Assembly: GCF_016775155.1 (NCBI RefSeq)
Contig: NZ_JAEUGD010000066.1
Span: 656,833 to 720,832 of the forward strand
Origin: Fulvivirga marina
GTDB lineage: Bacteria > Bacteroidota > Bacteroidia > Cytophagales > Cyclobacteriaceae
DNA: 64,000 bases
Direction: 5' to 3'
The stretch's first letter is position 1; each line of letters opens with the position of its first letter. Both the position numbers and the translations under genes were made by a program. Below are positions 25,001 through 47,344 of this stretch, in pieces. The notes below the pieces were generated by a model. The model saw only the letters and a program-made list of their open reading frames with translations, made no database searches and was not told the DNA's origin.

Positions 25001-25122
25001 ACAGTACCTTGGACAGTGAGTCCTTTCTGAGCATACACCTGACTTCCCGAGAATAAAGTCAGAAAAATAATAAATGATATAAGCCAGCTCATGGGCTTAA
25101 TCATTAAAAGGTCGATTTTCAT
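22006..25122 (-). CDS. SusC/RagA-family TonB-dependent transporter
   Basis: A 1038-residue outer-membrane TonB-dependent receptor that imports glycan oligomers. Signal peptide about 12-31 (ending VYA-Q). Carboxypeptidase-regulatory-like domain about 35-112 (VQGTVVDTETQAPLPGVNI). The TonB-box-like stretch EEVVVIGYSEQKKSDVTGS is followed by the plug domain (IRGKNSMSSNADPLYVVDGV; DILKDASSTAIYGSRGSNGVI), then a beta-barrel ending in the aromatic VSVKF. No N-terminal sigma-regulator-interacting extension is seen, which fits control by the LacI-type protein. It is the first gene of the susC-susD unit and has a leader of several hundred nt with an operator candidate at 25514-25527. Confidence 0.95.
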   Translation of the reverse strand: MKIDLLMIKPMSWLISFIIFLTLFSGSQVYAQKGLTVQGTVVDTETQAPLPGVNIVELSTISGEVNGTITDYDGTYKLRLTTDNAVLLMTYIGFADKEVAVNGRSTIDVSMDTDSETLEEVVVIGYSEQKKSDVTGSVGSVGAESITERNFTNPVEAIQGNVAGVQISSSTGRIGDGFDITIRGKNSMSSNADPLYVVDGVPTDGIDFLNPQDIARIDILKDASSTAIYGSRGSNGVIIVTTKSGATAKPGVNFVFDSYVGIKDVARLPDMMSGEKWWYYHQSAYLATAGKDPDTGTVTEQTLYDAVIGTNNSLLEKRANNNEVFDWYDAVLKTGIQQNHYLSASGTSGNGISYNLGIGFQNETGNIENESLDKYTFKFGLVNNINEKFSTGANFTIALTDQDLGSDLAMREAFRLNPFLSPYGLDGELFPLPGKLVDADGNYLINKTSTYNPLLEIANSVDNIRRWNGVGSVFVQYYPMEWLSFKSTLSGGADLSRRGKSWGAETNMGVNSRDLASAEISKTENFNYTWDNQFNINRDFGDDHNVSLLGLQSIFYSTTENSFASSRFMPFNTSYYNLGSGDQGTYALGTGFSKQTLSSYAIRLNYTFKEKYLLTLSNRWDGSSLLSETNRWDNFPSGAVAWRISEEAFMGAQEMVTNLKLRVSYGFTGNNIIAPYSTQNGLDLQTYYDFNGTNANGWLPSALANKALGWEKTKELNVGVDFGLLHNRITGSVDIYDRLSDELLLEQQLPRESGWETIRANVGSVSNKGVEIVLTTANVRTQKVSWETTFTFTKNTNEIRSIYGQDEVDDVGNGLFIGESIDAHYNYKFIGIWQANEATQAAEYGMKEGQEKLLDVDGNGEYDPDADRMILGSSNPDWTGSIFSRLTVGNFDLSASLITNQGVYVYSPFHANFTNTRDRGRQKLDIDWYIPANDAGLPAQYSNNYPQPRNEGSYWRNDGVGYYRDASFVKVKNIALGYTLSNKLTDKLGLQSCRVYTNVLNPFVFTDYDGYDPEWAAADFNIGRVSSVTYQFGVSVKF

Positions 25123-25513
25123 AGGTTAAGCTGTTTTTAGTATTACGGTTTTCGTATTTATCTTAGATTTTGACAAATATCCTTTCACTCTGATATTACC
25201 GTAACATTGCGGGGTACTCCACAGTATTGCACGGTTAAAATGGGGCTTTAAATATTATTTCCTCTACTCCATGACCTTGCAGCATCTTCTCAGGTATTTA
25301 TTCGGTGACCTGATTATACCTTCAGACCACCAAACCAAATACCCCTATTCTAACTATTTACTTCCTGAGAGCTAAAAGTCCAAACCCAAAAAATGGACTT
25401 TCATTCAATCCCGGATTGATAACCTGTACAATTAATTCCCCTAAACTAAATACAGGCCACCCTACTGAGAAATATTCGTTAACAGGTTGAAATTAATAAG
25501 GCAATTTGATTTA

Positions 25514-25527
25514 TGCAAACGATTACA
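25514..25527. promoter_or_regulatory. LacI-type operator candidate upstream of susC
   Basis: TGCAAACGATTACA matches the palindrome TGTAATCGATTACA at 12 of 14 positions. It is the weakest of four similar sites. It lies about 390 nt before susC in the divergent region shared with the LacI-family gene. Confidence 0.5.
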
Positions 25528-25710
25528 CTAAATAATTCAAAAAGCTAAAAAAATTCAAAAAACATGTCGGAATTATTAATAAAATGAAGCAAATTAAAAA
25601 GACAGCTTCCTAAAGATAGACGAATAACAATCAAAAAAGATTGCTTAATAAAACTAATTAAATATATAATTCAATTATAACAGGAATAAAAGATGCGTAT
25701 ATATTGTTTA

Positions 25711-25724
25711 TGTAATCGATAACA
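25711..25724. promoter_or_regulatory. LacI-type operator candidate upstream of lacI-type gene
   Basis: TGTAATCGATAACA matches the 14-nt palindrome at 13 positions. It is about 60 nt before the regulator's start, a position that fits autoregulation. Confidence 0.6.
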
Positions 25725-25785
25725 CACACATAATCAACAAGTTTATCCGTAAATTCCTTAAATTGAGCCAGCTTAACTTAATCAG

Positions 25786-26826
25786 ATGAGTGAAAAGATA
25801 ACTATTTACGACATAGCCAAGAAACTGAATATCACTGCAGCAACAGTTTCAAGAGCACTTAATAACAATCCACGAATTAGCGATACTACACGCAAACTAG
25901 TTATGGAAACTGCTGCAAGTATGGGTTACACACAGAACAAGTTGGCTCTGGCCCTAAAAAGTGGCAAAAGCAATCTGGTCGGTGTAATTGTACCTTACAT
26001 AGACACTAGCTTTTTTGCTTCAATCATTAGGGGTATTGAAGAAGCATTGCACCCAGAAGGCTATAATGTAATCATTTGCCAAACTCACGAAACCGAGGCT
26101 AAGGAAATAGAAACTGTAAATACTCTTCTAAACGCCCAGGTAGATGGAATACTCATGTCGCTTTCAAAAACTTCCAAGGAAACGACTCATTTTGAGCATA
26201 TCCTCAATAAAAAAATACCTCTGGTATTCTTTGACCGTCGAAAAAACATCAAGGGTGTAAGCAGTGTAACCATAGACGACTTTGAAGGTGGATATGTAGC
26301 TACCAAACACCTTATAGAGCAGGGTTGTAAAACGATTGCACACTTGTCTGGTGATTGGTCACTTGAAATATATAAGAATCGTTCCGAAGGATATAAACAA
26401 GCCTTACTGGATCATGGGCTAAAATATGACGAAAAGTATTTGCTTCACGTAAAAAGTGATACCGAGGCAGGGAAAAGCGCTGTAGATACGCTAATGAAAC
26501 TTGACAAGAAGCCCGATGCCATCTTTTCATCAAGTGACTTTGTAGCCTTGGGAGCTATCCAGAGGTTGCAGGAATTGGGGATAAAGCTTCCCGATGATTT
26601 TTGTGTTGTAGGCTTTAGTAATGAACCTTTCACACAACTTATGGAGCTTTCCATTTCTTCTGTAGATCAGGCCCCACATGAAATGGGAAGAATGGCAGCT
26701 AAAGTTTTTCTTGATCAGGTTTCGGGTGTCGGAAAAGTTAAAATTGAACAAAAAGTAGAGCTAACCCCACACCTGATCTCTCGCAAATCGTCCGTAAAGC
26801 CGGTAGCAAAGAAAAAAGCTAAGTAG
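25786..26826 (+). CDS. LacI-family transcriptional regulator of the pectin locus
   Basis: A 346-residue regulator. The N-terminal LacI helix-turn-helix and hinge cover about residues 3-58: ITIYDIAKKLNITAATVSRALNNNP, then SMGYTQNKLALALKSG. A periplasmic-binding-protein-like effector domain follows from about 61 to 335 (LVGVIVPYIDTSFFASIIRGIEEAL; PLVFFDRR; TKHLIEQGCKTIAHLSG; AIFSSSDFVALGAI). It sits between the surface pectin genes and the uronate catabolic operon. ATCGAT-centred palindromes, typical LacI-family targets, occur upstream of susC, itself, kduI and the second CE8. It probably senses a uronate or 2-keto-3-deoxygluconate-type effector; this is inferred. It is convergent with uxaA, leaving only 6 nt between the stops. 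Confidence 0.92.
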   Translation: MSEKITIYDIAKKLNITAATVSRALNNNPRISDTTRKLVMETAASMGYTQNKLALALKSGKSNLVGVIVPYIDTSFFASIIRGIEEALHPEGYNVIICQTHETEAKEIETVNTLLNAQVDGILMSLSKTSKETTHFEHILNKKIPLVFFDRRKNIKGVSSVTIDDFEGGYVATKHLIEQGCKTIAHLSGDWSLEIYKNRSEGYKQALLDHGLKYDEKYLLHVKSDTEAGKSAVDTLMKLDKKPDAIFSSSDFVALGAIQRLQELGIKLPDDFCVVGFSNEPFTQLMELSISSVDQAPHEMGRMAAKVFLDQVSGVGKVKIEQKVELTPHLISRKSSVKPVAKKKAK

Positions 26827-26832
26827 CTCATT

Positions 26833-28449
26833 CTATAGGGACACCCCCCTTTTCCATGGTATAAAGTCATTCTGATCAAGTTGCATTGCTTTGGTTTTAA
26901 TCCGACCGCTGGCTACATCAATGATAAGATCTATTAATTGCTCAGCCATTTCTTCGATCGTTTTTTCACCACTGATGATGGCTCCCGTATCAACATCTAT
27001 GATATCAGGCATTCTTTCTGCTAATTCCCTGTTGGATGAAACTTTGATCACCGGTACAATCGGGTTTCCCGTAGGTGTACCCAACCCAGTAGTAAACAGG
27101 ATAATGTTCACTCCTGATCCGGCCATGGCTGTAGTACTTTCTACATCGTTGCCAGGAGTACAGAGTAACGTAAGCCCCGGTTCTGAAACATATTCACCAT
27201 AATCAAGCACATCAACTATAGGCGAGGTCCCTCCTTTCTTGGCTGCACCGGCAGATTTCATGGCATCAGTGATCAAACCATCTTTGATGTTGCCAGGAGA
27301 AGGGTTCATATCAAAGCCTGATCCGGCATTAATAGCCGACTTTTCAAAAGCCTGCATTAGAGCCAGGAATTTATTAGCCTTTTCATCATTAACGCATCTA
27401 TTGGTTAACTCTTGTTCCACACCACACAGCTCTGGAAACTCAGATAGCACTGCCTTACCTCCCAACGCTACCAAAAGATCTGAAGTGTGCCCTAACGTTG
27501 GGTTAGCCGAGATACCCGAAAACCCGTCAGAACCTCCACATTCCAGTCCAATAGAAAGTTTCGATAAGGGAGCCGGCTCACGTTTGATTTCGTTGGCAGC
27601 GGCTATGGCTTCATACGACTCCCTGATTACGGTGCTGAGCATTTCGTCAACCGTGCCCATTTTCTGCTGTTCATAGATCAGTAGCCTTTTTTGAAAATCT
27701 GGGTTAATAGTAGCGAGTGCATCTTTGAACACCTGTACCTGCAAGTTCTGGCACCCCAGACTCAGTACCGTTGCTCCTGCCACATTGGGGTTGTTCAGAT
27801 ACCCTGCCAATAACCTGGCTAAAGACTCTGAGTCCTGACGAATACCTCCACAGCCTCCCTGATGGGAAATGAAACGTACCTCTACGTTGTCAAATACTCT
27901 TTCCTGTTGAGGTTCCTTTACAAGTTCATCTTGCTCTCCGTCATTATGGATCAATGAGCGTAATAATAATCTGTATTTATCTTCTTTCTTATTTAAAAGT
28001 TCTTTTTCAAAGACTTCCTTTAGCAATTCAATATTTCTGTTTTCACAAAAAACCAGCGGAAAGAAAAGCCATATATTCTGCGTACCTACCTGACCGTCAG
28101 CCCTATGGTATCCCATAAATGACTTCCCTTTAAAGCGATCAACCTGCGGCGGAGTCCAATTGATAGTTCCGGTTTTCTGCGTCACCTTCGCCACATCATG
28201 CTGTACATTGGCAGTAGTGAGCACCTGTCCCTTTCCAATGGCATCCCCTGACTTCCCCACCAGCACTCCATACATAACTATGCTATCACCTTGATTAAGT
28301 GCAGATAAAGCTACTTTATGCTTTGCCAGTGTAGCATTTTGTATAGTTATCTCTTCTCCATCTACCTCTATGATCTCACCTTGCTGAAGATTTGTTAAAG
28401 CAACTGCCACATTATCCGACGGGTGAACTTTGATTAATTTTTTAAGCAT
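26833..28449 (-). CDS. uxaA: Altronate dehydratase UxaA
   Basis: A 538-residue cytoplasmic enzyme converting D-altronate to 2-keto-3-deoxy-D-gluconate (KDG). The small N-terminal SAF-type domain (about 1-95) begins LIKVHPSDNVAVALTNLQQGE. The large C-terminal altronate/galactarate dehydratase domain contains FMGYHRADGQVGTQN, SHQGGCGGIRQD, LGCQNLQ, LECGGSDGFSGISANP and LLCTPGNDVESTTAMAGSG, where conserved cysteines probably hold iron. The length is typical. It is the last gene of the ten-gene uronate operon and overlaps uxaB by 8 nt. Confidence 0.95.
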   Translation of the reverse strand: MLKKLIKVHPSDNVAVALTNLQQGEIIEVDGEEITIQNATLAKHKVALSALNQGDSIVMYGVLVGKSGDAIGKGQVLTTANVQHDVAKVTQKTGTINWTPPQVDRFKGKSFMGYHRADGQVGTQNIWLFFPLVFCENRNIELLKEVFEKELLNKKEDKYRLLLRSLIHNDGEQDELVKEPQQERVFDNVEVRFISHQGGCGGIRQDSESLARLLAGYLNNPNVAGATVLSLGCQNLQVQVFKDALATINPDFQKRLLIYEQQKMGTVDEMLSTVIRESYEAIAAANEIKREPAPLSKLSIGLECGGSDGFSGISANPTLGHTSDLLVALGGKAVLSEFPELCGVEQELTNRCVNDEKANKFLALMQAFEKSAINAGSGFDMNPSPGNIKDGLITDAMKSAGAAKKGGTSPIVDVLDYGEYVSEPGLTLLCTPGNDVESTTAMAGSGVNIILFTTGLGTPTGNPIVPVIKVSSNRELAERMPDIIDVDTGAIISGEKTIEEMAEQLIDLIIDVASGRIKTKAMQLDQNDFIPWKRGVSL

Positions 28450-29911
28450 GATTCACTTGAGCTTTATATACACTGTTCTTATAATTGAAGAAACCTTTTT
28501 CAATACCATTTGATATGATCTCCTCTAATGCAATGGTCAACATGCTCTCCAAGCCATTAACCTGAGACAGATCCTGCCCCCATAAGGCTTCGTTTCGAAG
28601 GCTGTTATGTACCACCTCCTCGATATTATCTGTCAACCATACCTTTGTAAAAAAGTCCTGTATCTCCTGATCATCCTGTACAGGAAGCTTTTTGCTCATC
28701 CATGTCCCCTGATAGAAACGTAGCAGACAAGCAAAAGAAAAAGTCAGATGGACAGGTAATTTATTATTGAGCTTTTGGTATTCTAAAATGCTGGGTAAAA
28801 CCCTCACTTTAAACTTTGATATGGAGTTGAGAGCAATACTGGATAATTGATGCTTGATAAATGGGTTACGGAAACGATCAAAAACCTCATTGGAAAAATC
28901 TTCAAGTTCCGACCTATCCATTTCAAGTGTTGGCAATACCTCCTCAAAAACCGCTTCTCTTATAAACTCACCTGTAAACTCATTCTCAACTGTCTCTTTA
29001 ACCAAAATATTACCATAGAGAATAGAAAGCGGCACCATAGCGGTATGTGCTCCATTCAAAATACGAACCTTTCGGGTTCGGTAGGGTTGCATATCATCTA
29101 CGATCTTCACATCCAGACTAGTCTGCTCAAAGGGTAGCTTTTGTTTTAGCTTATCATCGCCTTCGATTACCCATAGGAAGAAAGATTCCGCTGTTACGAT
29201 CAACTGATCTTCATAATCGAGCTGACTGCTATATAACTCGATTTCATCCTTTGGATATCCTGGTACAATTCTATCTACCAACGTATTATGAAAACTATTG
29301 TGTTCAATGACCCACGTTTTAAAATCACTTCCCAGGTTCCAGTCTGTCACATAACGGAGTATTATATTCTTTAAAGTATCTGCGTTGTAATTGATCAGTT
29401 CGCATGGGATAATGCTCAGTCCTTTGTCTTCTGCTCCTTGAAAATATTTAAAACGTTCATAAAGGAATACCGTCAACTTTCCCGGAAAAGAGGCCGGTGG
29501 ATTCATATCCGGCGTATCCGATGGCAAATAGGCGATGCCTGCTTCAGTGGTATTGGATACCACAAACTCCAATGATTCTTCTCTAGCAAGACTGATATAA
29601 TCTTCAAAACTTTGGTAGGGATCAATAGCCTTAACGACACTCCTGATCAACTCCTGCTGTTGCACTTCTTTTCCTTTTTGAAACCCCTTCAGAAAGAGCG
29701 TATATAGTCCATCCTGGTCGCTCAAAAGCTTGACCAGTCCCTTATCAAGTGGTTGTACCACAGCCACCCCTGCATTAAATCCCGCTTCATCATTTAATTT
29801 CTGAAAAGCGTAATCAACAAATGCTCTCAGAAAATTACCTTCCCCGAATTGAAGCACTTTCACAGACAATTCTTCTGTTATCCCTAGTCCCTTTCTGGTT
29901 AATTTCTTCAT
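28442..29911 (-). CDS. uxaB: Tagaturonate reductase UxaB
   Basis: A 489-residue NADH-dependent oxidoreductase of the mannitol dehydrogenase superfamily, reducing D-tagaturonate to D-altronate. The N-terminal Rossmann domain starts LQFGEGNFLRAFVDYAF. VVSNTTEAGIAY, LINYNADTL and HNSFHNTLVDRIVPGYP are conserved family blocks. The C-terminal domain contains RILNGAHTAMVPLSILYG. It acts directly before UxaA, whose gene it overlaps by 8 nt, and follows the TRAP permease gene. The length fits UxaB, and the galacturonate context favours tagaturonate over fructuronate reductase. Confidence 0.95.
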   Translation of the reverse strand: MKKLTRKGLGITEELSVKVLQFGEGNFLRAFVDYAFQKLNDEAGFNAGVAVVQPLDKGLVKLLSDQDGLYTLFLKGFQKGKEVQQQELIRSVVKAIDPYQSFEDYISLAREESLEFVVSNTTEAGIAYLPSDTPDMNPPASFPGKLTVFLYERFKYFQGAEDKGLSIIPCELINYNADTLKNIILRYVTDWNLGSDFKTWVIEHNSFHNTLVDRIVPGYPKDEIELYSSQLDYEDQLIVTAESFFLWVIEGDDKLKQKLPFEQTSLDVKIVDDMQPYRTRKVRILNGAHTAMVPLSILYGNILVKETVENEFTGEFIREAVFEEVLPTLEMDRSELEDFSNEVFDRFRNPFIKHQLSSIALNSISKFKVRVLPSILEYQKLNNKLPVHLTFSFACLLRFYQGTWMSKKLPVQDDQEIQDFFTKVWLTDNIEEVVHNSLRNEALWGQDLSQVNGLESMLTIALEEIISNGIEKGFFNYKNSVYKAQVNHA

Positions 29912-29934
29912 ATCATATCAATTGAAAAGTTTTT

Positions 29935-31236
29935 TTATAAATCAAATAATCCGGGAAGCCAAAGGCTTAGTTGCGGAAAATATGTGATCAGAAACAATGC
30001 AAGTATCATGGCCAGAAATAAAGGCATCAAAGGCTTGATGACTTTCTCTATGGTAGTTTTTGCAATACCAACCCCTACAAAAAGTACCGAACCTACTGGC
30101 GGGGTGCATAGCCCGATGCATAAATTCAATATCATGATAATTCCAAAGTGTACGGGGTGAAGCCCAAGCTTGGTCACTACGGGCAAAAATATTGGAGTAA
30201 AAATCAATACGGCCGGTGTCATATCCATAAAGACCCCAACAAAAAGCAGTAACAGGTTAATGATGATAAGGATAACTATTTTATTATCACTGATACTTAA
30301 AAGTCCTGAACTGATATCCTGCGGTATATTTTCATAAGATAAAACCCACGACATACACATAGAAGCTCCGATCAATAGCATGACAACCGCCGTGGTCGCT
30401 GCCGAACTCAATAAAATATCTGGCAAACCTGATAGTGTTAGTTCCTTATAGATAGCGCCTAATATCAAGGTATAGAGCACTGCAATTGCAGAAGCCTCTG
30501 TTGCTGTAAAAATGCCAGCTACAATACCTCCGATTACTATTATTAATAAAAAGAGGCTCGGTAATGCGTCTACGAATGTTTTGAATACCTCTTTTAGTGA
30601 GCTTCGTTTTCCTACATTGTAATTCTTTTTCTTCGCCCATATCAGGGCGACTATCATCAGGAACAAGCCTGTAAGTATTCCAGGGATGTAACCAGCTAAA
30701 AACAGGGCCGCTATAGATGCTCCACCACTGGCCAGTGAGTAAACAATAAGGATATTGCTGGGTGGAATGATCAACCCTGTAGTGGCCGAAGTAATATTTA
30801 CCGCTGCTCCAAACTCTTTAGAGTAACCCTCTTTCTCCATTTCAGGGCCCAAAATGCTACCCATAGCTGATGCGGAGGCCATAGCTGAACCCGCTATGGC
30901 CCCCATTAACATAGCGGATATAATATTGATCAATGCCAGTCCTCCTGGCAAACTGCCTACCAGTGTTTTAGCAAAAGCTATAAGCCGGTGGGCAATCCCT
31001 CCTTTATTCATTAGCTCTCCGGAAAGCACAAAAAACGGGATCGCCAGTAAAGCAAAACTATCTAACCCAGTGCCTATCCGCTGGGAAACCGTGGTAAACG
31101 CAGGTAAAGCAGGAATACTGACCAGCATGGTTAGCAGCGCTGAAATGGCTATACTCCATGCCACAGGAGTGCCTATGGCTAGCAAAGCAAGAAAACTACT
31201 AACGAGAACAAGTATTGGTAAATATTCCATGAACAT
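29935..31236 (-). CDS. TRAP transporter large permease (DctM-like)
   Basis: A 433-residue inner-membrane protein with about 12 hydrophobic segments, the large subunit of a tripartite ATP-independent periplasmic (TRAP) transporter. Family features: ALLAIPFFVLSGELMNKGGIAHRLIAFAKTLVG, GSAMASASAMGSILGPEM, ATTGLIIPPSNILIVYSLASGG, and near the end NLCIGLCTPPVGSVLFVGVGIA. It couples sodium entry to import of the substrate delivered by DctP. Its ATG shares one base with the dctQ stop (TAATG). The probable substrate is galacturonate or an unsaturated uronate, inferred from the operon. Confidence 0.95.
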   Translation of the reverse strand: MFMEYLPILVLVSSFLALLAIGTPVAWSIAISALLTMLVSIPALPAFTTVSQRIGTGLDSFALLAIPFFVLSGELMNKGGIAHRLIAFAKTLVGSLPGGLALINIISAMLMGAIAGSAMASASAMGSILGPEMEKEGYSKEFGAAVNITSATTGLIIPPSNILIVYSLASGGASIAALFLAGYIPGILTGLFLMIVALIWAKKKNYNVGKRSSLKEVFKTFVDALPSLFLLIIVIGGIVAGIFTATEASAIAVLYTLILGAIYKELTLSGLPDILLSSAATTAVVMLLIGASMCMSWVLSYENIPQDISSGLLSISDNKIVILIIINLLLLFVGVFMDMTPAVLIFTPIFLPVVTKLGLHPVHFGIIMILNLCIGLCTPPVGSVLFVGVGIAKTTIEKVIKPLMPLFLAMILALFLITYFPQLSLWLPGLFDL

Positions 31237-31694
31237 TAATGATTTATCATATCGTATAGCTTATAATAGATGATCAGGATGCCACTGATTGGGATAACCG
31301 CATACACGGCTGCCAATGGCAGTTGCATGGCCGGAGAGTACTGTTCAAGTACATAGGTGATATATACCAGCCTTCCTCCCCCTATTACAAGTGCGCACAA
31401 ACTGAACAAACTAACGAGCAGGTCAATAAATATTCTCAACCGCTTTTGTTGGGCCGCATTAAGTTTTCGAAGCAACACATCTATGGCTACATGGCCCTGT
31501 TTGCCCGAAACATAGGCCGCACCAAGTATCCCTACCCAGATCATTAAATACCTGGCCAACTCATCTGTAAAGGAACTTGGAGAGTCCATCAGGTATCGAC
31601 TAAAGACCTGCCATAGTACATTGATCACCATCAATGCCATAATCAGGATGAGTGTGTTGGCAAGTATTTTATCTATTTTAGCTCTTAACTCCAT
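31236..31694 (-). CDS. TRAP transporter small permease (DctQ-like)
   Basis: A 152-residue inner-membrane protein with four hydrophobic segments, the small membrane subunit of the TRAP system. Typical DctQ wording is seen: VLWQVFSRYLMDSPSSFTDELARYLMIWVGILGAAYVSGKQGHVAIDVL. It pairs with the DctM-like protein encoded next, with a one-base stop/start overlap, and with DctP encoded 3 nt upstream. Confidence 0.93.
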   Translation of the reverse strand: MELRAKIDKILANTLILIMALMVINVLWQVFSRYLMDSPSSFTDELARYLMIWVGILGAAYVSGKQGHVAIDVLLRKLNAAQQKRLRIFIDLLVSLFSLCALVIGGGRLVYITYVLEQYSPAMQLPLAAVYAVIPISGILIIYYKLYDMINH

Positions 31695-31697
31695 AAC

Positions 31698-32678
31698 TTA
31701 GTGTGTTGATTGGATTTCCCTGATGATTTCATAGAGCTTCTTATCCTTTTTGTAGCCTTCGTATATTCCCTCCACCTTTCCGGCAAACAGCTTCTTATCA
31801 GGTCTGATGATCTCGACACCGGCCTTCTGAACCATCTCCAGAGCTTCGGTCTCAGATATAGCCCATAGTTCTCGCTGGTATTTTACTGATTTATCTACAG
31901 CCTGTTTTAGCCATGTTCGTTCCTCTGGTGTCAGTCTGTTCCAAAGATGGGTGCCTATTACCAGTACGTCGGGCAGTAAAGTATGCTCATCAAGTGAATA
32001 ATATTTGCAAACTTCATAGTGGCGTGACAAGTAAAAGCTTGGTGGATTGTTTTCGGCACCATCAACCACTCCTTGCTGGAGCGAGGTATACAATTCTCCC
32101 CATGATATAGGTGTTGGAGAACCTCCCAGGCTCGTCACCATATCCATGGCTGTAACACTTTCCATCACTCTGATTTTTAAACCTTTGAGATCATCTGGCT
32201 GGTTAACCGGGCGCTCTTTGGTATAGAAACTTCTACAGCCGGCATCATAATATCCTAACCCTTTGAGCCAGTATTGTTCGCCCTCATTAAGTAACTCTTG
32301 TCCTATGGGGCCATCCAACACTTTAAAAGCGTGCTCTCTGTCGCGAAACAAAAAAGGTAACCCTAACACTCTCATACCTGGAGCAAAATTTTCCAATACT
32401 CCAACCGACACTTTTGTCATACCCAAACTGCCAATTTGGAGTAATTCCAGACACTCTCGCTCAGTACCCAATTGCTGATTGGGATAGATCTCAATTTTTA
32501 ATTTTCCACCTGAAAGCTCTTCCAGATCCTCTCCCATTTTGACCATGGCTTGGTGTACTGAATGACTTACATCAAGCGTATGAGCCAATTTAACGGTCCT
32601 GGTCTTTTTCTGCTGATTGCAACCGTTTGCGCCTATTAGTGCAACAAGGGTTAGCCATATGGTAAACGCACGCCTCAT
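31698..32678 (-). CDS. TRAP substrate-binding lipoprotein (DctP-like)
   Basis: A 326-residue periplasmic binding protein of the DctP family. A signal peptide ends in ANGC at about residues 17-20, so it is probably a lipoprotein. Conserved blocks: VKLAHTLDVSHSVHQAM, IEIYPNQQLGTERECLELLQIGSLGM, and LKGLKIRVMES, which carries the arginine that binds the substrate carboxylate in this family. ELYTSLQQGVVDGAENNPPSFY follows. It hands a carboxylated sugar, very likely a uronate, to the membrane subunits encoded next. It follows kdgA by 6 nt. Confidence 0.94.
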   Translation of the reverse strand: MRRAFTIWLTLVALIGANGCNQQKKTRTVKLAHTLDVSHSVHQAMVKMGEDLEELSGGKLKIEIYPNQQLGTERECLELLQIGSLGMTKVSVGVLENFAPGMRVLGLPFLFRDREHAFKVLDGPIGQELLNEGEQYWLKGLGYYDAGCRSFYTKERPVNQPDDLKGLKIRVMESVTAMDMVTSLGGSPTPISWGELYTSLQQGVVDGAENNPPSFYLSRHYEVCKYYSLDEHTLLPDVLVIGTHLWNRLTPEERTWLKQAVDKSVKYQRELWAISETEALEMVQKAGVEIIRPDKKLFAGKVEGIYEGYKKDKKLYEIIREIQSTH

Positions 32679-32684
32679 ATTATA

Positions 32685-33356
32685 TTAACTACCCTTAATT
32701 TTTTGAATAATGCCTAAAGTATCTCTTACTTTAAGTTCCAATGCTTTATAGTCACCACTGCTAACGATACTCTTCAGCACCAATTGAGATCCCATTCCTA
32801 CACAGCTTACTCCTGCTTCAAACCAGTATCTCAGGTTTTCTTCAGTAGGCGAAACACCCCCGGTAGGCATAATATTAGTCCATGGGCAAGGTCCTTTGAC
32901 GCCCTTTACAAACTCTGCTCCGTATACGTCTCCCGGAAACAGCTTAACTAACTCACACCCATACTCTTCGGCTTTGGCAATCTCAGTAAGTGTACCACAA
33001 CCCGGTGACCACAACACTTTTCTTCTATTGCATGCTATAGCTATATCCTCTCGAAATACAGGGGTAACTACAAAGTTTGCACCCATTTGCATGTAAAGTG
33101 ATGCAGCAGCAGCATCTGTAACCGAACCCACCCCAAGCATTAAATCAGGACATTCTTCTTGGCAGAATTTTGCTAGATCAGCAAAAACCTCATGGGCAAA
33201 GTCACCTCTGCTAGTAAATTCAAATAGTCGGGCACCTCCAAGGTAGCATGCTTTAACCACCTGTTTCACCACATGGGCATCCTCATGAAAAAACAGGGGC
33301 ACTAAGCCTGTTTTTTCCATTTGTGAGAATACCTCAATCCTTGAAAATCTACTCAT
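32685..33356 (-). CDS. kdgA: KDPG/KHG aldolase
   Basis: A 223-residue class I aldolase cleaving 2-keto-3-deoxy-6-phosphogluconate into pyruvate and glyceraldehyde-3-phosphate. LFEFTSRG carries the catalytic glutamate (E46). GVGSVTDAAAASLYMQMGANFVVTP is the family core, and LVKLFPGD holds the Schiff-base lysine (K138). MPTGGVSPTEENLRYW binds the phosphate. It lies directly after kdgK, so the last two steps of the pathway are adjacent. Confidence 0.95.
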   Translation of the reverse strand: MSRFSRIEVFSQMEKTGLVPLFFHEDAHVVKQVVKACYLGGARLFEFTSRGDFAHEVFADLAKFCQEECPDLMLGVGSVTDAAAASLYMQMGANFVVTPVFREDIAIACNRRKVLWSPGCGTLTEIAKAEEYGCELVKLFPGDVYGAEFVKGVKGPCPWTNIMPTGGVSPTEENLRYWFEAGVSCVGMGSQLVLKSIVSSGDYKALELKVRDTLGIIQKIKGS

Positions 33357-33363
33357 GTCGTTT

Positions 33364-34374
33364 TTATCTTTTTACGTGACCAGAATTATTGCCTGCCATT
33401 AAGCTTAGCACTTCTTCTTTTGAAACTAAATTGGTATCTCCATAAATAGTGTGTTTCAAGCAAGAAGCTGCAACGGCAAAATCAAGGGCTCTTTGCTCGT
33501 CAAAATGGCATAAGCCATAAATAAGAGCGCCCATAAAACTATCTCCGGCTCCAATTCGGTCAACAATATAGGTGATGTCATAAGGCTTTGAATTGTAAAG
33601 CTGCTTACCGCTATACAGCACCGCCGACCAAGTGTTATGTAATGCATTGATCGTACCCCGGTTGGTAACCGCTACCTTCTTTACCTTCGGAAATTTCCTA
33701 ATCAACTCCTGACAAAGTGATACCTGTCGTGTCTGTTCAGTGTTGCCCGATGGCTCTATACCAAAATATTGTTTTGAAGCGTAATCTCCCGCCAGCACAA
33801 CATCACACATAGCGACCATCTTTTCCATGATCTCGCTTGGCGATTTCCCATAATTCCAGAGATTGGCTCGGTAATTAAAGTCTGTTGATATGGTCAACCC
33901 CATTTGGTTAGCTTCTTCAATAGCCTCCATACACAGGTCGGCAGCCCCCTGAGATACCCCGGCGGTAATTCCTGACCAATGAAACCATCCAGCATCCTTA
34001 AAAACAGCCTTCCAGTCCACCATGCCCTTTCCAATAGTACAGAACGATGAAAAAGCCCGGTCATAAACTACCTTACTACCACGAAGAGAGGCTCCTTTTT
34101 CGAGGAAATAAATTCCCATACGGTCTCCTCCCCTTACAATATGATCTGTTGAAATTTTATGCTGGTGAATTTGAGCCAGAGCACAATCCCCAATATCATT
34201 GTCGGGCAACCTTGTCACAAATGCTGACTCCATCCCAAAATTGGTAAGGGTCGAAATTACATTTAACTCGCTCCCTCCGTAATCAGCATTGAAACCATGA
34301 GCCTGAGAAAACCTCAAATATTCTTTTGTGGATAACCTTAACAATACCTCGCCTATAGCAACTACTTTTTTCAA
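33364..34374 (-). CDS. kdgK: 2-keto-3-deoxygluconate kinase (PfkB family)
   Basis: A 336-residue ribokinase/PfkB-type kinase that phosphorylates KDG at the expense of ATP. N-terminal signature: AIGEVLLRLSTKEYLRFSQAHGFNADYGGSELNV. The C-terminal PfkB signature DRIGAGDSFMGALIYG contains the catalytic aspartate and the anion-hole glycines. It precedes kdgA by 7 nt and follows uxaC. The operon context makes KDG the likely substrate. Confidence 0.93.
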   Translation of the reverse strand: MKKVVAIGEVLLRLSTKEYLRFSQAHGFNADYGGSELNVISTLTNFGMESAFVTRLPDNDIGDCALAQIHQHKISTDHIVRGGDRMGIYFLEKGASLRGSKVVYDRAFSSFCTIGKGMVDWKAVFKDAGWFHWSGITAGVSQGAADLCMEAIEEANQMGLTISTDFNYRANLWNYGKSPSEIMEKMVAMCDVVLAGDYASKQYFGIEPSGNTEQTRQVSLCQELIRKFPKVKKVAVTNRGTINALHNTWSAVLYSGKQLYNSKPYDITYIVDRIGAGDSFMGALIYGLCHFDEQRALDFAVAASCLKHTIYGDTNLVSKEEVLSLMAGNNSGHVKR

Positions 34375-34406
34375 CAGTCAGCCGGTTTATAATTTATAAT
34401 CGTATG

Positions 34407-35843
34407 TTATAAGAATTCAAAATACTCTTTCGCGTTGTAGTAAGAGACATCCTGAACCATTTTACCTATCCATTCCATATCAGCTGGCAGTTCACCTCTG
34501 TTAATCTCGTCTCCTAGAATGTTGCACAATACCCTACGAAAGTATTCGTGTCTTGGAAATGACAAAAAGCTTCTGGAATCCGTGAGCATACCAATAAAGC
34601 AGCTAAGTAAGCCCATATTAGATAGTGCATTCAACTGCTTGGTAATACCATCTTTTTGATCCAGAAACCACCAACCTGAGCCGAACTGCATCTTGCCTTT
34701 TACTTTTCCATCGTTAAAGTTGCCAATCATACTGGCCATAACTTCATTATCTGCCGGGTTAAGATTATAAATGATTGTTTTAGCCAATTTATCTTTTTCA
34801 TCCAAAGCATTAAGAAACCTTGACAGTGCTGAAGCCTGAGAAAAATCCCCGATAGAATCCCAGCCCGTATCAGGCCCTAACAAATTATTCATTCTGCTGT
34901 TATTGTTCCTTAGCGCCCCTAGGTGAAATTGCTGCACCCAGCCCAAGTCATGATAGGCTTCCGCCAGGAACAATAAAATAGCAGAATGGAATTTTAATGC
35001 TTCTGAATCTGATAATGAATTTCCTGACCTTCTCTTTTTAAATATCGCATCGATCTCCTGATCGGTAGAAGGCTCAAAATACATATGGTTAAGGCCATGA
35101 TCAGACAGCCTGCAACCATTGCTATGAAAATATTGCATACGCTTGCTTAAAGCATCGCAGATATCCTTAAATGAATTTATAGAAATATCAGATACCTCTT
35201 CCAACTTATCTATGTAATCGTTGTATGCTTGATTATCAATAAGAATGGCCTTATCGGGCCTGAATGCCGTACTCATTTTTAAGACATGCCCGTTTTGTTT
35301 CATTTTTTGATGATACTCCAAAGTGTCGATAGGATCCTCTGTGGTACAAACCACCTCCACATTCATTTTACTCAGCAAGTTCTGGCAACTATACTCAGGA
35401 GTATTTAAAAGTCCAGATGTTGCCTCATACACGTCGGCAGCAGTACTCTCATTGAGCAGTTTATATTCATCAAAATATCTGGCCAGCTCCAAGTGCGTCC
35501 AATGATAAAGTGGATTACGCATGGTATAGGGCACAACTGAAGCCCATTTCCTGAATTTATCTACGTCAGCAGCACCTCCGGTAATATACTTTTCTTCGAC
35601 TCCCATAGTGCGCATTGCCCGCCATTTGTAATGATCTCCATGTATCCACGCCTCAGCTATATTGTCAAAAACTCTATCATTGGCAATATCTGCAGGAGAC
35701 AGGTGGCAATGATAATCGATAATGGGCATTTTGCTGGCAAAGTCATGATATAGCTCTTCTGCATAGCGATTTTCCAAAAGGAAACCGGAATGAATGAGTG
35801 CCTTTCTGCCATTAACTGATTGTATTGTTGTATTACTTTTCAT
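34407..35843 (-). CDS. uxaC: Uronate isomerase UxaC
   Basis: A 478-residue metal-dependent isomerase of the amidohydrolase superfamily, converting D-galacturonate to D-tagaturonate (and glucuronate to fructuronate). The N-terminal metal site is in IDYHCHLSPADIANDR. WKWRAMRTMGVEEKYITG-type wording follows, seen here as HYKWRAMRTMGVEEKYITG. ALSNMGLLSCFIGMLTDSRSFLSFPRHEYFRR near the C-terminus is also diagnostic. The length is typical. It overlaps kduD by 11 nt, so it is translationally coupled. Confidence 0.96.
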   Translation of the reverse strand: MKSNTTIQSVNGRKALIHSGFLLENRYAEELYHDFASKMPIIDYHCHLSPADIANDRVFDNIAEAWIHGDHYKWRAMRTMGVEEKYITGGAADVDKFRKWASVVPYTMRNPLYHWTHLELARYFDEYKLLNESTAADVYEATSGLLNTPEYSCQNLLSKMNVEVVCTTEDPIDTLEYHQKMKQNGHVLKMSTAFRPDKAILIDNQAYNDYIDKLEEVSDISINSFKDICDALSKRMQYFHSNGCRLSDHGLNHMYFEPSTDQEIDAIFKKRRSGNSLSDSEALKFHSAILLFLAEAYHDLGWVQQFHLGALRNNNSRMNNLLGPDTGWDSIGDFSQASALSRFLNALDEKDKLAKTIIYNLNPADNEVMASMIGNFNDGKVKGKMQFGSGWWFLDQKDGITKQLNALSNMGLLSCFIGMLTDSRSFLSFPRHEYFRRVLCNILGDEINRGELPADMEWIGKMVQDVSYYNAKEYFEFL

Positions 35844-36621
35844 TTGCCGGTTTACCTATAGTTGCTAATATTCCTCCATCTACATAAATAATCTGACCAT
35901 TAACGAAGTTACTGGCTTCAGATGCCAGAAAGACGGCCGTTCCTGCCAGGTCTGAAGGTTCTCCCCATCGTCCAGCAGGAGTCCTGTTCACAATGAATTC
36001 ATTGAACGGATGTCCATCCACACGTATAGGCTCTGTTTGCGCAGTCGCGAAATAGCCAGGCCCTATTCCATTGACCTGTATATTATATTTGGCCCACTCA
36101 GTGGCAAGGTTCCTCGTCAGCATTTTCAACCCACCCTTAGCTGCTGCATAAGCAGTTACGCTGTTTCTTCCTAACTCGCTCATCATAGAGCATATATTGA
36201 TTATTTTTCCTCCACCGCGGGCTATCATTCTGCTTCCTACAAGCTGAGACATGATAAATGCTCCAACCAGATCTACATCAATAACCCTTCTGAAGTCAGC
36301 TATGGCCATATCTACAGCCATCTCACGCTTAATAATTCCTGCGTTATTGACCAAGATGTCAATCTCTCCCACTTCCTTTTCTATATTCTCTACCTGATCA
36401 GAAGCTAGTTTTTCATCGGTAATATCAAATATGTAACCGGTCGCTTTATACCCTTTACTTTTATAATAGCCAAGGGCATTTTCCAATTTTTCAGGGGTTG
36501 TGCTACTAATCACTAGTTCTGCTCCGGCTGACGCCAGCCCCTCAGCCATAGCCATGCCCAAGCCATGAGTACCGCCTGTTACCAAGACAATTTTATTAGT
36601 AAGATCAAATAAGTTCATCAT
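35833..36621 (-). CDS. kduD: KduD: 2-deoxy-D-gluconate/DKII dehydrogenase
   Basis: A 262-residue short-chain dehydrogenase that reduces 2,5-diketo-3-deoxygluconate (DKII) to KDG. TGGTHGLGMAMAEGLA is the nucleotide-binding glycine motif, and NNAGIIKR follows the central strand. The catalytic Ser is in ICSMMSELG and the Tyr/Lys pair in YAAAKGG. GIGPGYFATAQTEPIR and RTPAGRWGEPSDLAG are typical KduD blocks. It starts 2 nt after the kduI stop and overlaps uxaC by 11 nt. With KduI it handles unsaturated uronates from the pectate lyases. Confidence 0.94.
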   Translation of the reverse strand: MMNLFDLTNKIVLVTGGTHGLGMAMAEGLASAGAELVISSTTPEKLENALGYYKSKGYKATGYIFDITDEKLASDQVENIEKEVGEIDILVNNAGIIKREMAVDMAIADFRRVIDVDLVGAFIMSQLVGSRMIARGGGKIINICSMMSELGRNSVTAYAAAKGGLKMLTRNLATEWAKYNIQVNGIGPGYFATAQTEPIRVDGHPFNEFIVNRTPAGRWGEPSDLAGTAVFLASEASNFVNGQIIYVDGGILATIGKPANEK

Positions 36622-36623
36622 TT

Positions 36624-37460
36624 CTATCTAAGTTCATGAGGTTCGCAAGTATCCATGTCACTATAGTCCAGGTTTTCACCTGCCATTCCCCATATAAAGG
36701 AATAATTGGAGGTTCCTACTCCAGAGTGTATGGACCATTCGGGAGAGAGTATCGCCTGATTGTTGTGCATAAAAATATGCCTGGTATTCTGAGGTTCACC
36801 CATAAAATGTGAGATAGTTTGCCCCTCTTTCAAATCAAAATAAAAGTAAGCTTCCATTCTCCTGCTATGCGTATGCGCAGGCATGGTGTTCCATACATTG
36901 CCCGGCAAAAGTTCGGTCAGCCCCATTTGCAACTGACAGGTTTCCACCACGCTGTTAACGATGAGTTTATTTATTATTCGTTTATTAGAATTGAGATCAT
37001 CTCCCAGGTGAACTACCTCTGCATCTTTCTTTCCAACTTTACGGGTAGGGCATTCTTTGTGCGCGGGAGCAGAGTTGAGATAGAACAACGGTTGTCCTTC
37101 CCCTACCTTAGCAAAAGACACTTCTTTACTTCCTCTCCCCACATATAGGGCTTCTTTTTTCTCCAATTCATATTCCATGCCGTCAACAATAACCAGTCCC
37201 TTATCTCCTACATTAATAACCCCCAATTCTCTTCTCTCCAGAAAATAATCAGATTTCAAATGAGAAATAGTTTCCAACTGCACCTTTTCATTGGCAGGCA
37301 TAGCACCACCAACGATATACCTGTCATACATTGAGTAGGTAAGGTTAATCTGACCTGAAACAAACAGGTCATCAATTAAAAAGTGTTCTCTTAGTTCGCT
37401 GGTACCATATCGTCTCGCATCCACCGGGTTTGTAGCGTATCTAAAATCTGAATTAGTCAT
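36624..37460 (-). CDS. kduI: 4-deoxy-L-threo-5-hexosulose-uronate isomerase KduI
   Basis: A 278-residue cupin-type zinc isomerase converting 5-keto-4-deoxyuronate to 2,5-diketo-3-deoxygluconate. The metal ligands H196, H198 and E203 in [16 protein letters not shown] and H245 in [18 protein letters not shown] fall at the same numbers as in the E. coli enzyme. N-terminal family text such as [21 protein letters not shown] is present, and the length is normal. It is the first gene of the ten-gene uronate operon, with a promoter and an operator candidate directly upstream. Confidence 0.97.
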
Positions 37461-37473
37461 AATTAAAAGTTAG

Positions 37474-37487
37474 TGTAATCGATTACT
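37474..37487. promoter_or_regulatory. LacI-type operator candidate at the kduI promoter
   Basis: TGTAATCGATTACT matches the 14-nt palindrome at 13 positions. It abuts the predicted -7 box, so a bound repressor would block transcription initiation of the uronate operon. Confidence 0.65.
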
Positions 37488-37520
37488 CAAATATATAAAA
37501 TAATTCCTAAGGTTTTCAAA
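37488..37520 (-). promoter_or_regulatory. Bacteroidota-type promoter of the kduI operon
   Basis: On the minus strand TATATTTG (37488-37495) fits the -7 consensus TAnnTTTG. TTTG at 37517-37520 fits the -33 element, with a 21-nt spacer. It lies about 30 nt before kduI. Confidence 0.6.
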
Positions 37521-38009
37521 GTTTGATAAAAAAGTGAAGCTAAAACTGTCCGTAGCCATTTTAAAACAGACAGGACAAGACATAGTTTCTATCAATAGAA
37601 AACGGAAACTCAACACTTTAATCATTTATCTATCGATTAAACATTCACTTCCCTCATAATATTTAAAGAGACTATACGCGCCTCAAATGTTAAGAGGGTT
37701 TTCTTCTCAAAGTATCCTTATTTGTCAATTAGCAAAAGAGAGCGTAACTACTGGCACAATTACGACAATCATATTATAATTAAATCGATATTAAGCATCA
37801 TTTTTTAACACATCAAGTATCATCATGCTGAATTTCACCTTTTACTCTACTAATAAAACAGGGCTAAACCAGTGCATTAAGTATCTGAAATTTTAATGAC
37901 GGTAGCGACTAACATCATGCATGTATCTGGCTTATACTCCATATTGCTATATTGTTCACAGTAAAGTACATGACTAAGCGCCTAAACATTTTTTTGCGAA
38001 ATTATTTTA

Positions 38010-38023
38010 TTTAATCGATTACA
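38010..38023. promoter_or_regulatory. LacI-type operator candidate upstream of the second CE8 gene
   Basis: TTTAATCGATTACA matches the 14-nt palindrome at 13 positions, 90 nt before the CE8 start. Confidence 0.6.
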
Positions 38024-38112: not shown

Positions 38113-40143
38113 ATGATGATTTTAAGAAAATCAGTAAAATTCATTATGGCCTTCATTTGTATAGGGCTATTTTTCTGTTCGGGGTATGCAGCCCAAGAAG
38201 ACGCAGATATTATCGTTGCTAAAGACGGATCCGGGGACTACACCTCCATTCAAGCAGCAATTAACTCAGTACCGGATAACAGTTCTACCAGAACTGTTAT
38301 TTACATCAAGTCCGGGCTGTATAACACGGAAAAACTCATCATTCCCAGCGAGAAGAAAAATGTAACAATTCAGGGCGAAGACAGGACAAGTACTATTATT
38401 AGTTATCACATCTATAACTGTAGTGAAGGAAGTGGTAAGTGTCCGGTAGACGATGCTGCCCTCTGGCCAGCAGAGGTCATCAGAACCTCTGCAACCCTCA
38501 CCATCAAAGGTGATGGTTTTAAAGCAGAGAATCTTACAATCCAAAACACAGCAGGTCCTGTTGGACAGGCTCAGGCCATTACTGTTCAGGCAGACAAAGT
38601 GGTCTTTTTGAATTGTGATCTAAAAAGTTATCAGGATACTATTTATTTCTGGAACGTAGGTAAAAGAGCTTACTTTAACGGGTGTCTGATCGTTGGCAGG
38701 ACCGACTACATTTACGGAGGTGGCGTCGCCTTTTTCGAAGCGTGTGAGATTAGAAGTTGGGGAGGTGGCTGGATAACTGCCCCATCTACTGCTGAGAGCC
38801 AGAAGTATGGATTTGTTTTCTATAAATGCAGTGTAACATATGCAGACAACAGTCCCAGAAATGGTGACGATGGCAACAAAATAGCATTTGGAAGACCATG
38901 GCATAATTACCCTAAAGTAGCATGGCTGTACTGTGATATGACTTCTATGATCAATCCGGAAGGGTGGCCTACTACATGGAATATGGATTATGCAGCCACT
39001 TCTGACAAACTGGAACTATACGAGTACAAAAATACTGGTGGTGGTGCTGATATGAGTGGCAGAGCTAATTGGGCAGGTATAAGGGCTCTTACGGATGCCG
39101 AGGCTGCTTTGTATGAAAGAGCCACAGTTCTGGCTGGTACTGACAACTGGAACCCTTCTCCTCCTGCAGCCACTCTTCAAAAGCACGGAGCAGGCTCTTC
39201 AATACAGACAGTCGACCTGGGTAGTACCATTGAAGGTTTTTATTATTCATGGACTAACGCTACTTCAGTAACTGTATCCGGTCTTCCGTCGGGTATTAGT
39301 ACTACAATCAACACGGGTGATCAAACTGTTACCTTTAGTGGCACTCCTATAGAAGCAGGGATATTCAATTATACTGTATCTACAGTCGGAGGCCTGACTA
39401 CTGCCTCCCACAGCGGTCAGATCACGGTTAATAATGTTAATTACTATCAACTAAAAAACCGTTCCACCGGCCTGTTACTAGATGGCATGGGCCGAACAAA
39501 CAATGGAGGCGCCTGCGGGCAATATGCCAATACAACACATGTAAACTCACATTGGAAACTGGTAGACGTTGGCAATGGCTATTACCAATTTGTAAACCGT
39601 GGCACGGGAATGATCCTTGATGGTTTAGGGTCAACTACCAACGGTGCTGCATGTGGGCAATGGGCCAACACTACTCATAGAAACTCGCACTGGTCATTAC
39701 AAAAATATGATGGAGACTATTACAGAATCAAAAACCGATCCTCAGGAATGTTTTTAGATGGTTATGGCCAAAGTGCCAATGGTGCTGATTGTAAGCAATA
39801 TGCCAATACCAATCACCCGAATGCTCAATGGCTTTTGATACAGGTTAATAATAATGCTTCAAGCACCAGAATGTATGATGCTGCCACCCCTAATGTAAAC
39901 ACTAGTGACTTTCTGGTGTACCCTAATCCTTTTGAAGATAAACTATTCATCAATATTGGTCAGTCAGGTACGCCGTTAAGCCTTGAACTCTACAATATGC
40001 AAGGCAAATTGATTAAGTCGATCGATAAACCAGTAGTATCTGATCAATCAGTTACCATTAACATAGCCGAGTATGGCAAACAGTTCATTTTAAAAATGGT
40101 AACTGATCAGGGCAGCTTTATCCAGACGGTAATTAAAAAATAA
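38113..40143 (+). CDS. Secreted pectin methylesterase with ricin-like repeats and T9SS signal
   Basis: A 676-residue modular enzyme. Signal peptide about 1-29. CE8 catalytic domain about 32-345: AKDGSGDYTSIQAAIN, GQAQAIT, SYQDTIYFW with the first catalytic Asp, RTDYIYGGG in place of the usual DFIFG with the second Asp, and FGRPWHNYP with the substrate arginine. An Ig-like linker covers about 357-442. Residues 444-582 are three tandem repeats of exactly 46 residues, each starting YYxxxNRxxG with LDGxG and ending in a conserved W, as in ricin-type beta-trefoil lectins. The final 75 residues are a type A T9SS sorting domain (YPNPFEDKLFINI). It is divergent from kduI, with its own operator candidate. 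Confidence 0.93.
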   Translation: MMILRKSVKFIMAFICIGLFFCSGYAAQEDADIIVAKDGSGDYTSIQAAINSVPDNSSTRTVIYIKSGLYNTEKLIIPSEKKNVTIQGEDRTSTIISYHIYNCSEGSGKCPVDDAALWPAEVIRTSATLTIKGDGFKAENLTIQNTAGPVGQAQAITVQADKVVFLNCDLKSYQDTIYFWNVGKRAYFNGCLIVGRTDYIYGGGVAFFEACEIRSWGGGWITAPSTAESQKYGFVFYKCSVTYADNSPRNGDDGNKIAFGRPWHNYPKVAWLYCDMTSMINPEGWPTTWNMDYAATSDKLELYEYKNTGGGADMSGRANWAGIRALTDAEAALYERATVLAGTDNWNPSPPAATLQKHGAGSSIQTVDLGSTIEGFYYSWTNATSVTVSGLPSGISTTINTGDQTVTFSGTPIEAGIFNYTVSTVGGLTTASHSGQITVNNVNYYQLKNRSTGLLLDGMGRTNNGGACGQYANTTHVNSHWKLVDVGNGYYQFVNRGTGMILDGLGSTTNGAACGQWANTTHRNSHWSLQKYDGDYYRIKNRSSGMFLDGYGQSANGADCKQYANTNHPNAQWLLIQVNNNASSTRMYDAATPNVNTSDFLVYPNPFEDKLFINIGQSGTPLSLELYNMQGKLIKSIDKPVVSDQSVTINIAEYGKQFILKMVTDQGSFIQTVIKK

Positions 40144-41720: not shown

Positions 41721-42201
41721 TGCACAATTGATCTTGATATTTACTCAAAATTAACCAGATCCCTCCTGTAAATTCAATAACAAAAGTCATTCCGCTATAT
41801 GATTAATGTCTCTATCTCAGGCTATCCTCATATGTGATAACCACTTTTCATTTTGTCTATTATTTCCTCCGTTTTTGATCCCGATCATAAATATCCACAC
41901 CAAGGAGAATAAAAATGCCAAAACCAAATCAACAAACTCATTATCAGTAACTTAATAAAAGTCCACCTTTTTGTCTATCTAAATATCCACCTTTTTGTCT
42001 GTGTTTTTCTGACTTAGTAATCATGCAGAACAGGCACCTTCGCACAAACCTAATGAAGTGCTCGTTATATGAAGCCAGACTCTAATTGTCAGATTACTAC
42101 GCCAAAGAAAAAACCTTCCGGTAAAGTAAATAAAGTGTATTGCTTTCCGGCTAGCCACACGGGTACCCTTAAGCCACAACCAGAAAACCTTGCCCGTACC
42201 A
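41721..42201. other. Region upstream of the chemotaxis operon
   Basis: About 480 nt without a convincing gene. It holds a direct repeat (41962-42000) and a tiny frame at 41915-41950 (MPKPNQQTHYQ) preceded by AAGGAG, unusual for this phylum and possibly a leader peptide or chance. The cheA promoter must lie here. Confidence 0.45.
41962..42000. repeat. 15-nt direct repeat upstream of cheA
   Basis: TCCACCTTTTTGTCT occurs at 41962-41976 and again, identical, at 41986-42000, with starts 24 nt apart. The word AAATATCCAC also occurs twice (near 41889 and at 41981). It may be a tandem regulator-binding site for the chemotaxis operon. Confidence 0.5.
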
Positions 42202-44687: not shown

Positions 44688-44710
44688 TTCTAACTATAAC
44701 CAAAGAAAAC

Positions 44711-46861: not shown

Positions 46862-46938
46862 AAAATTATCATAGCTGTGATACAACCCCATTGGAGTTAA
46901 CTCACGGTAGAACTTTAACATTTCAAAAAACTGATTAT

Positions 46939-47316: not shown

Positions 47317-47344
47317 ACGGTTTACCTAAACATTCAAACCCATT

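Follow-up and report, generated by a model that had tools for sequence, protein, structure and literature searches.

The pectin locus and its LacI-type regulator

The window analysed here is a stretch of 64,000 nt from Fulvivirga marina, a member of the Bacteroidota (NCBI RefSeq assembly GCF_016775155.1, contig NZ_JAEUGD010000066.1, positions 656,833 to 720,832). It contains a pectin locus with a LacI-type regulator gene, a uronate catabolic operon, a susCD pair and several genes for pectin-degrading enzymes, and our analysis suggests that four intergenic palindromes are the operators through which the local regulator represses these genes as one regulon. The genes of the locus are as follows:

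12452-20289, minus strand: pectinesterase, pectate lyase with a type IX secretion system (T9SS) tail, GH28 and DUF4861 genes, downstream of susCD
20379-22004, minus strand: susD (Pfam SusD_RagB, 4.2e-35)
22006-25122, minus strand: susC (NCBIfam OMP_RagA_SusC, 2.5e-223)
25786-26826, plus strand: LacI-family regulator gene (lacI), 346 aa, recognition helix ITAATVSRA
26833-36621, minus strand: kduD, uxaC, PfkB-type kinase, 2-keto-3-deoxy-6-phosphogluconate (KDPG) aldolase, tripartite ATP-independent periplasmic (TRAP) transporter dctPQM, uxaB and uxaA, the remainder of the catabolic operon
36624-37460, minus strand: kduI (Pfam KduI, 8.7e-28), which opens the catabolic operon
38113-40143, plus strand: CE8 pectinesterase gene (ce8) with a ricin-type lectin domain and a T9SS sorting domain, on the other side of kduI

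The genes from kduI to uxaA form a tight ten-gene operon, in which neighbours overlap or are separated by at most 32 nt. lacI and uxaA are convergent, with gene ends 6 nt apart, while susC, susD and the pectinesterase, T9SS pectate lyase, GH28 and DUF4861 genes behind them are read away from lacI. The product of lacI combines an N-terminal LacI helix-turn-helix (Pfam LacI, 2.1e-12, 47.1 bits, cut-off 27) with a periplasmic-binding-like effector domain (Peripla_BP_1, 8.5e-35, 121 bits, cut-off 22.2), the architecture of the LacI/GalR family. Against NCBIfam it matches 21 models, led by RbsR, CytR and CcpA, all below their cut-offs. A Pfam scan of all 18 genes between 12452 and 40143 finds neither a hybrid two-component system (HTCS) nor an extracytoplasmic function (ECF) sigma factor/FecR pair, and the locus is thus not a canonical HTCS- or ECF-controlled polysaccharide utilization locus (PUL).

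Four intergenic palindromes precede the genes of the locus

The reference palindrome, TGTAATCGATTACA, is 14 nt long and CG-centred. Its copies in the window are placed as follows:

25514-25527: operator-like palindrome TGCAAACGATTACA, 2 mismatches, between the divergently read susC and lacI, beginning 392 nt from the start of susC and 272 nt from that of lacI
25711-25724: operator-like palindrome TGTAATCGATAACA, 1 mismatch, beginning 75 nt before the start of lacI
37474-37487: operator-like palindrome TGTAATCGATTACT, 1 mismatch, 13 nt before the kduI start codon
38010-38023: operator-like palindrome TTTAATCGATTACA, 1 mismatch, beginning 103 nt before the T9SS CE8 pectinesterase gene
20603-20616: fifth copy, TGTAATCGATATCA, 2 mismatches, inside susD

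The first four sites are all intergenic and all keep the central CG, as do the even palindromes that serve as LacI/GalR operators. An initial annotation of this DNA had reported these four sites, and their coordinates and match counts prove correct in every case. Its statement that there is no other copy does not hold, because the copy inside susD also has only two mismatches. In 113 of 400 simulated windows the best site scores at least as high as the susD copy; as a fifth-ranked site it is matched in none of 300. In the close relative G253 this copy carries one change, and the encoded FDIDYI is the same. It is probably coincidental.

We built a matrix from seven sites of other genera, together with their reverse complements, and tested it against Markov-1 simulated windows. 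The four intergenic sites take ranks 1 to 4 in the window, with scores of 20.7, 20.0, 18.4 and 16.7, and none of 300 simulated windows attains the observed score at any of these ranks. For the sites one by one, the best simulated site scores as high as the 37474 site in 1 of 400 windows, as the 38010 site in 1 of 400, as the 25711 site in 7 of 400 and as the 25514 site in 16 of 400.

The 25514 and 25711 sites are spaced by 197 nt (196 nt in G253), which would allow looping. Between these sites and susC, at 25300-25450, there are blocks conserved with G253, possibly a susC leader, with no Rfam match; the Rfam scan of the whole window gives 0 matches at gathering score.

The sites are conserved with the regulator

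Genomes are labelled G000 for F. marina itself, G253 for the close relative, and G076, G092 and G162 for three genomes of two other genera. Orthologs of the local LacI-type protein lie beside uronate genes in G253 (89 % identity), G076 (64 %), G092 (60 %) and G162 (60 %), and a scan of named contigs, which detects close relatives only, finds a single locus, that of Fulvivirga kasyanovii JCM 16186, with an ortholog of 90 % identity. Among 390 order-level genomes a search at E 1e-112 finds the own genome only and no further ortholog; this sample evidently lacks the known close relatives.

In G253 all four window sites are kept at matching positions. Specifically, the counterpart of the 25514 site is identical (14/14), and that of the 25711 site is TGCAATCGATAACA (13/14). 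The susC-lacI region as a whole is 62 % identical between the two genomes, and 2.6 % of 14-column windows in it are conserved as well as the 25514 site and 6.8 % as well as the 25711 site, a comparison that is modest taken alone. The kduI site of G253 is the same as that of G000. Its ce8 site, TTTAATCGATTACT, lies in the same place relative to ce8, even though the kduI-ce8 distance is 8.6 kb in G253 and 0.65 kb here. The additional DNA between kduI and ce8 of G253 (C1:6289700-6298300, L128) contains ECF sigma, FecR, SusC-like, proline dehydrogenase and symporter genes.

Outside the genus, exact TGTAATCGATTACA precedes the kduI ATG by 14 nt in G076 and by 13 nt in G092; counting G000 and G253, four genomes have the kduI site at this distance of 13-14 nt. 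The gene order behind kduI is the same in G076 and G092, but the TRAP genes are unmatched in G092. The exact palindrome also precedes lacI in G076 and a uxaA-like gene in G162, of which only residues 227-538 aligned. Conserved sites thus stand before both the regulator and the catabolic operon, as expected for an autoregulated local LacI regulon, with the lacI genes of G162 and G092 as the exception. The 295 genomes of the family contain 17 exact palindromes, spread over 13 genomes, compared with 6 occurrences of the control. Five of the 17 copies fall in G076, G162 and G092, the three genomes outside the genus with a LacI ortholog of 60-64 %; four of the five lie in the LacI locus and one by a major facilitator superfamily (MFS) transporter gene.

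For a further genome, G275, lacI and kduI sit at contig edges, so the sites there cannot be judged, and none of its 27 places is recognisable as the 25514 or ce8 site at an orthologous gene. One G275 place (C76:54) is spelled like the G253 ce8 site; it lies 28 nt before a MatE gene, its flanks cannot be aligned with the DNA upstream of ce8, and it was rejected. This place, G275 C496 and G253 2930769 (inside a gene) were left out of all counts. Exact palindromes also occur elsewhere in the family. In G243 (L074) they lie beside a MarR-family gene, two of them 30 nt apart, and there the palindrome may serve an unrelated regulator; L080 and L075, of the G243/G280 set, hold further exact copies.

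The putative kduI operator abuts a predicted promoter

One promoter match adjoins an operator:

37488-37520, minus strand: Bacteroidetes-type promoter TTTG-N21-TATATTTG of kduI, whose -7 box abuts the operator

Over both strands, the window has three perfect matches to the Bacteroidetes promoter consensus, TTTG-N21-TATATTTG, and this is one of them. Because the -7 box directly precedes the operator, transcription is expected to start inside it.

These features suggest a simple mechanism. The LacI-type protein encoded at 25786-26826 would bind the CG-centred TGTAATCGATTACA and repress lacI, the ten-gene kduI-uxaA catabolic/TRAP operon, ce8 and, less surely, susCD. A dimer on the kduI operator would cover the expected start and block initiation, as in classical steric repression. 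The signal that frees the repressor would be an intermediate of uronate breakdown: galacturonate, 2-keto-3-deoxygluconate (KDG) or a related keto-deoxy sugar. We infer binding by the local protein, the sign of regulation and the inducer, taking repression and induction by analogy from the LacI family. From the sequence, we put the probability of a pectin-uronate regulon repressed by the local LacI-type protein at roughly 0.8. The joint control of uptake, esterase and catabolic genes by the local regulator, which the initial annotation had proposed, is thus supported by the sites, their placement and their conservation, with susC the least sure member.

The sites reach a remote pectinesterase gene, a GH48 gene and a second pectin locus

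A scan of the whole genome had been suggested by the initial annotation. We ran it by mismatch counts, defining intergenic as outside predicted open reading frames of at least 90 aa or at least 100 aa. At no more than two mismatches it gives 34 places: 22 inside predicted genes, 11 intergenic and 1 ambiguous (L009). Of the intergenic places, seven precede genes of the pectin locus (the four window sites), a pectinesterase gene (C16:90120), a GH48 gene (C54:171020) and the genes of a LacI/SusC pectin locus (C25:297800). The remaining four lie near HNH/integrase, SSB-like, histidine-kinase and Band-7 genes. Two loci outside the window stand out:

C54:169045-171033 of G000 (L087, L102): GH48 gene and its site
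C25:286000-305000 of G000 (L099): second pectin locus, with a LacI paralog, SusCD, pectinesterase, GH88 and lyase-like genes and a perfect TGCAATCGATTGCA

In all three genomes that have GH48, among six searched, a conserved operator-like site lies 25-26 nt ahead of the GH48 ATG. In G000 (25 nt) the place was counted as intergenic although a longer reading frame covers the site. The C16:90120 site, a variant of TGTAATCGATTACA, precedes a remote gene for a T9SS pectinesterase of 1329 aa; it shows no change in G275 and one additional change in G253. The GH48 and remote pectinesterase sites are both islands of conservation in poorly conserved DNA. Before the remote pectinesterase gene of G000 there are in fact two LacI-like sites 23 nt apart (L098:5121-5157), the second of which is paralog-like and is not seen in the G253/G275 alignment. 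In G092 an ortholog of this pectinesterase (52 %) lies in the LacI locus itself, and three motif-like sites lie between it and susC.

When the 34 places of G000 are compared with the 31 of G253, seven intergenic places match, namely the four window sites, the GH48 site, the C25 site and one repeat-like place, and three more match inside genes. The repeat-like pair (L085 in G000, L146 in G253) shares a 77-nt match, placed at an equal offset of about 91 nt from either site. L085 is centred on TG, not CG, and precedes an HNH-type gene on a small contig with an integrase; the pair was treated as a repeat. TGTAATGGATAACA and TGTAATAGAGTACA occur in both genomes and were rejected, since their contexts did not match. 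Two CG-centred palindromes, TGTAGTCGTTTACA (L086:2001-2014) and TGTAAACGTTTACA (L092:2001-2014), each lie about 130 nt upstream of an SSB-like gene.

Chance, other regulators and the LacI paralog

Several observations weigh against a regulon of the local LacI-type protein, and the first concern numbers. The window has six matches to TGTAATCGATTACA at no more than three mismatches, an unremarkable count that is reached by 15 of 100 shuffles; the 34 genome places compare with 22 for the reversed-pattern control; and the bare core TAATCGATTA is not enriched genome-wide (6 versus 11 in the control). In favour of the regulon, three of the five one-mismatch places in the genome of 6.78 Mb, which has no exact copy, are in the pectin locus. 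By raw count the sites could be chance palindromes of AT-rich intergenic DNA. This explanation is contradicted by the matrix test, by the exact sites in other genera and by the islands of conservation, and we consider it extremely unlikely. The case for operators is carried by placement and conservation, not by raw count.

Other points concern individual sites. At ce8, lacI and susC we find no promoter match with one mismatch or fewer. In G162 and G092 there is no site with three mismatches or fewer within 600 nt upstream of lacI. The second exact copy in G162 adjoins the MFS transporter gene, not uronate genes. In the window, the 25514 site may serve lacI; because it is closer to lacI than to susC, control of susC is the weakest assignment. 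As a separate observation, G162 (L063, L067) has exact palindromes beside alpha-amylase, MFS sugar transporter and putative glucoamylase genes.

A further set concerns the protein. In genus g8, exact TGTAATCGATTACA stands where a uxaB-like gene starts in G007 and next to a pectinesterase-like gene in G133; the LacI protein of G007 that matches best has the helix TTASTVSRA. Exact palindromes accompanied by another helix indicate that helix and motif are not one-to-one. Moreover, the 25514 site is a mosaic: like C16:90120, it is two mismatches from both TGTAATCGATTACA and the paralog motif TGCAATCGATTGCA.

The binding protein need not belong to the LacI family at all, since the TGTAA-N4-TTACA half-sites resemble CRP/FNR spacing. 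A CRP/FNR-type or other palindrome-binding regulator is nevertheless very improbable. The central CG is kept in the four window sites and in the GH48, remote pectinesterase and paralog sites, with one weaker G092 site as the exception, and exact sites track the lacI-uronate locus across genera. A central CG is common to 1173 LacI-family regulators, and 1251 of the 1303 studied have even palindromes (PMC4052901).

Within the LacI family the choice is narrower. The genome has five LacI-family genes. Of the four besides the local one, three have different upstream palindromes (TGCAATCGATTGCA, CGCAAACGTTTGCG and CGCAAACGTTTGCA) and one has none that is similar. Among 34 LacI homologs, the helix ITAATVSRA is present in six, the local protein and five close orthologs, all beside uxaA. 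Because this helix is restricted to the uxaA-side orthologs and the other LacI genes have different palindromes, the local protein is favoured. A simpler rule, in which residue 18 would set the half-site (A for TGT, S for TGC), was dropped because mosaic sites that include a TGTAA half are found with S-type proteins too. It is undercut as well by the exact palindromes in g8 and by 24 of the 34 homologs, which have no such site in the searched stretch; one of the 24, L023, is at a contig end with no upstream DNA.

The strongest competitor of the local protein is the paralog at C25 (helix VTASTVSRA, 47 %). Together with the local LacI it may control both pectin loci, so that 25514 and C16:90120 would be partly or mainly its sites. 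A perfect TGCAATCGATTGCA lies between the C25 paralog gene and its own susC, and again in G253 and upstream of a G275 LacI gene; TGCAATCGATTGCA-like places are enriched (21 versus 6); the C25 locus contains pectinesterase, GH88 and lyase-like genes; and both the equidistance of the mosaic sites and the paralog-like site 23 nt from C16:90120 point the same way. The kduI, lacI, ce8 and GH48 sites are closer to the local motif than to the paralog motif, and exact TGTAATCGATTACA stands at the orthologous operon of G076 and G092. On balance we regard joint control as possible but doubtful, and retain repression by the local LacI-type protein.

Further along the window, beside the pectin locus, there is a chemotaxis cluster at 42190-49699 (CheA-like kinase, methyl-accepting chemotaxis protein, CheR and CheB), and glycosyltransferase genes lie at about 53-60 kb.

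Discussion

Our literature searches found no report of this regulon. That LacI-family proteins govern uronate genes in Bacteroidota has, however, been predicted before (PMC3878776, PMC5507952). Outside this phylum, KdgR and ExuR of Bacillus subtilis are LacI-family repressors of KDG and hexuronate operons; they differ from the present case in belonging to another phylum and in having no SusCD or T9SS esterases. Closer parallels are the LacI-family regulators KdgR, UxaR and UxuR predicted for Bacteroides uronate catabolism (PMC3878776, PMC4052901), which are alike in LacI-family control of galacturonate/glucuronate catabolism in Bacteroidota, and some extracellular or periplasmic proteins are placed in the Bacteroides KdgR regulon (PMC3878776). 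UxuR2 of Algoriphagus marincola HL-49 (PMC5507952) is predicted to exert LacI-family control over galacturonate/glucuronate loci with a TRAP transporter, as here; the UxuR2 section of that paper does not mention SusCD or secreted pectinases. The pectin PUL of Gramella flava, a marine member of the Bacteroidota (PMC5306329), has comparable pectinesterase, pectate lyase, kduI, kduD, uxaC, kdgK, eda, uxaB and uxaA genes; a legend lists its lacI before the pectin part, with xylan genes, and the word "operator" does not occur in the main text. The pectin and rhamnogalacturonan loci of B. thetaiotaomicron are assigned to HTCS, whereas here LacI-type sites lie at the susC-lacI region, a secreted esterase gene and the catabolic operon. 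The 14-mer string itself also occurs in PMC9598941 (Staphylococcus). Within the genus, F. kasyanovii strain 48LL is reported to grow on pectin (PMC12565237).

What is new is that the operator set of one pectin locus reaches a secreted esterase gene, the susC-lacI region and, probably, the GH48 gene. Tentatively, and at rather less than even odds, we suggest that a LacI-type uronate sensor and a diverged, overlapping paralog coordinate pectin uptake, esterases and catabolism with GH48, which would probably act on another structural polymer, such as cellulose. Fulvivirga GH48 is listed under chitin, not cellulose (PMC10113389), which makes this suggestion somewhat less probable.

If this suggestion is true, galacturonate would tell the cell that plant tissue is present, and the two pectin loci would be coupled through mosaic operators that both LacI proteins read. 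Apart from this suggestion, the proposed regulon would link secreted T9SS esterases and the GH48 gene to intracellular uronate sensing. The sites provide a ready set of candidate operators with which to study one-component repression of a Bacteroidota SusCD pectin locus, a setting in which HTCS or ECF control is usually expected. The local LacI protein and its paralog, whose motifs are adjacent, form a natural pair that may serve as a model for how operator specificity splits.

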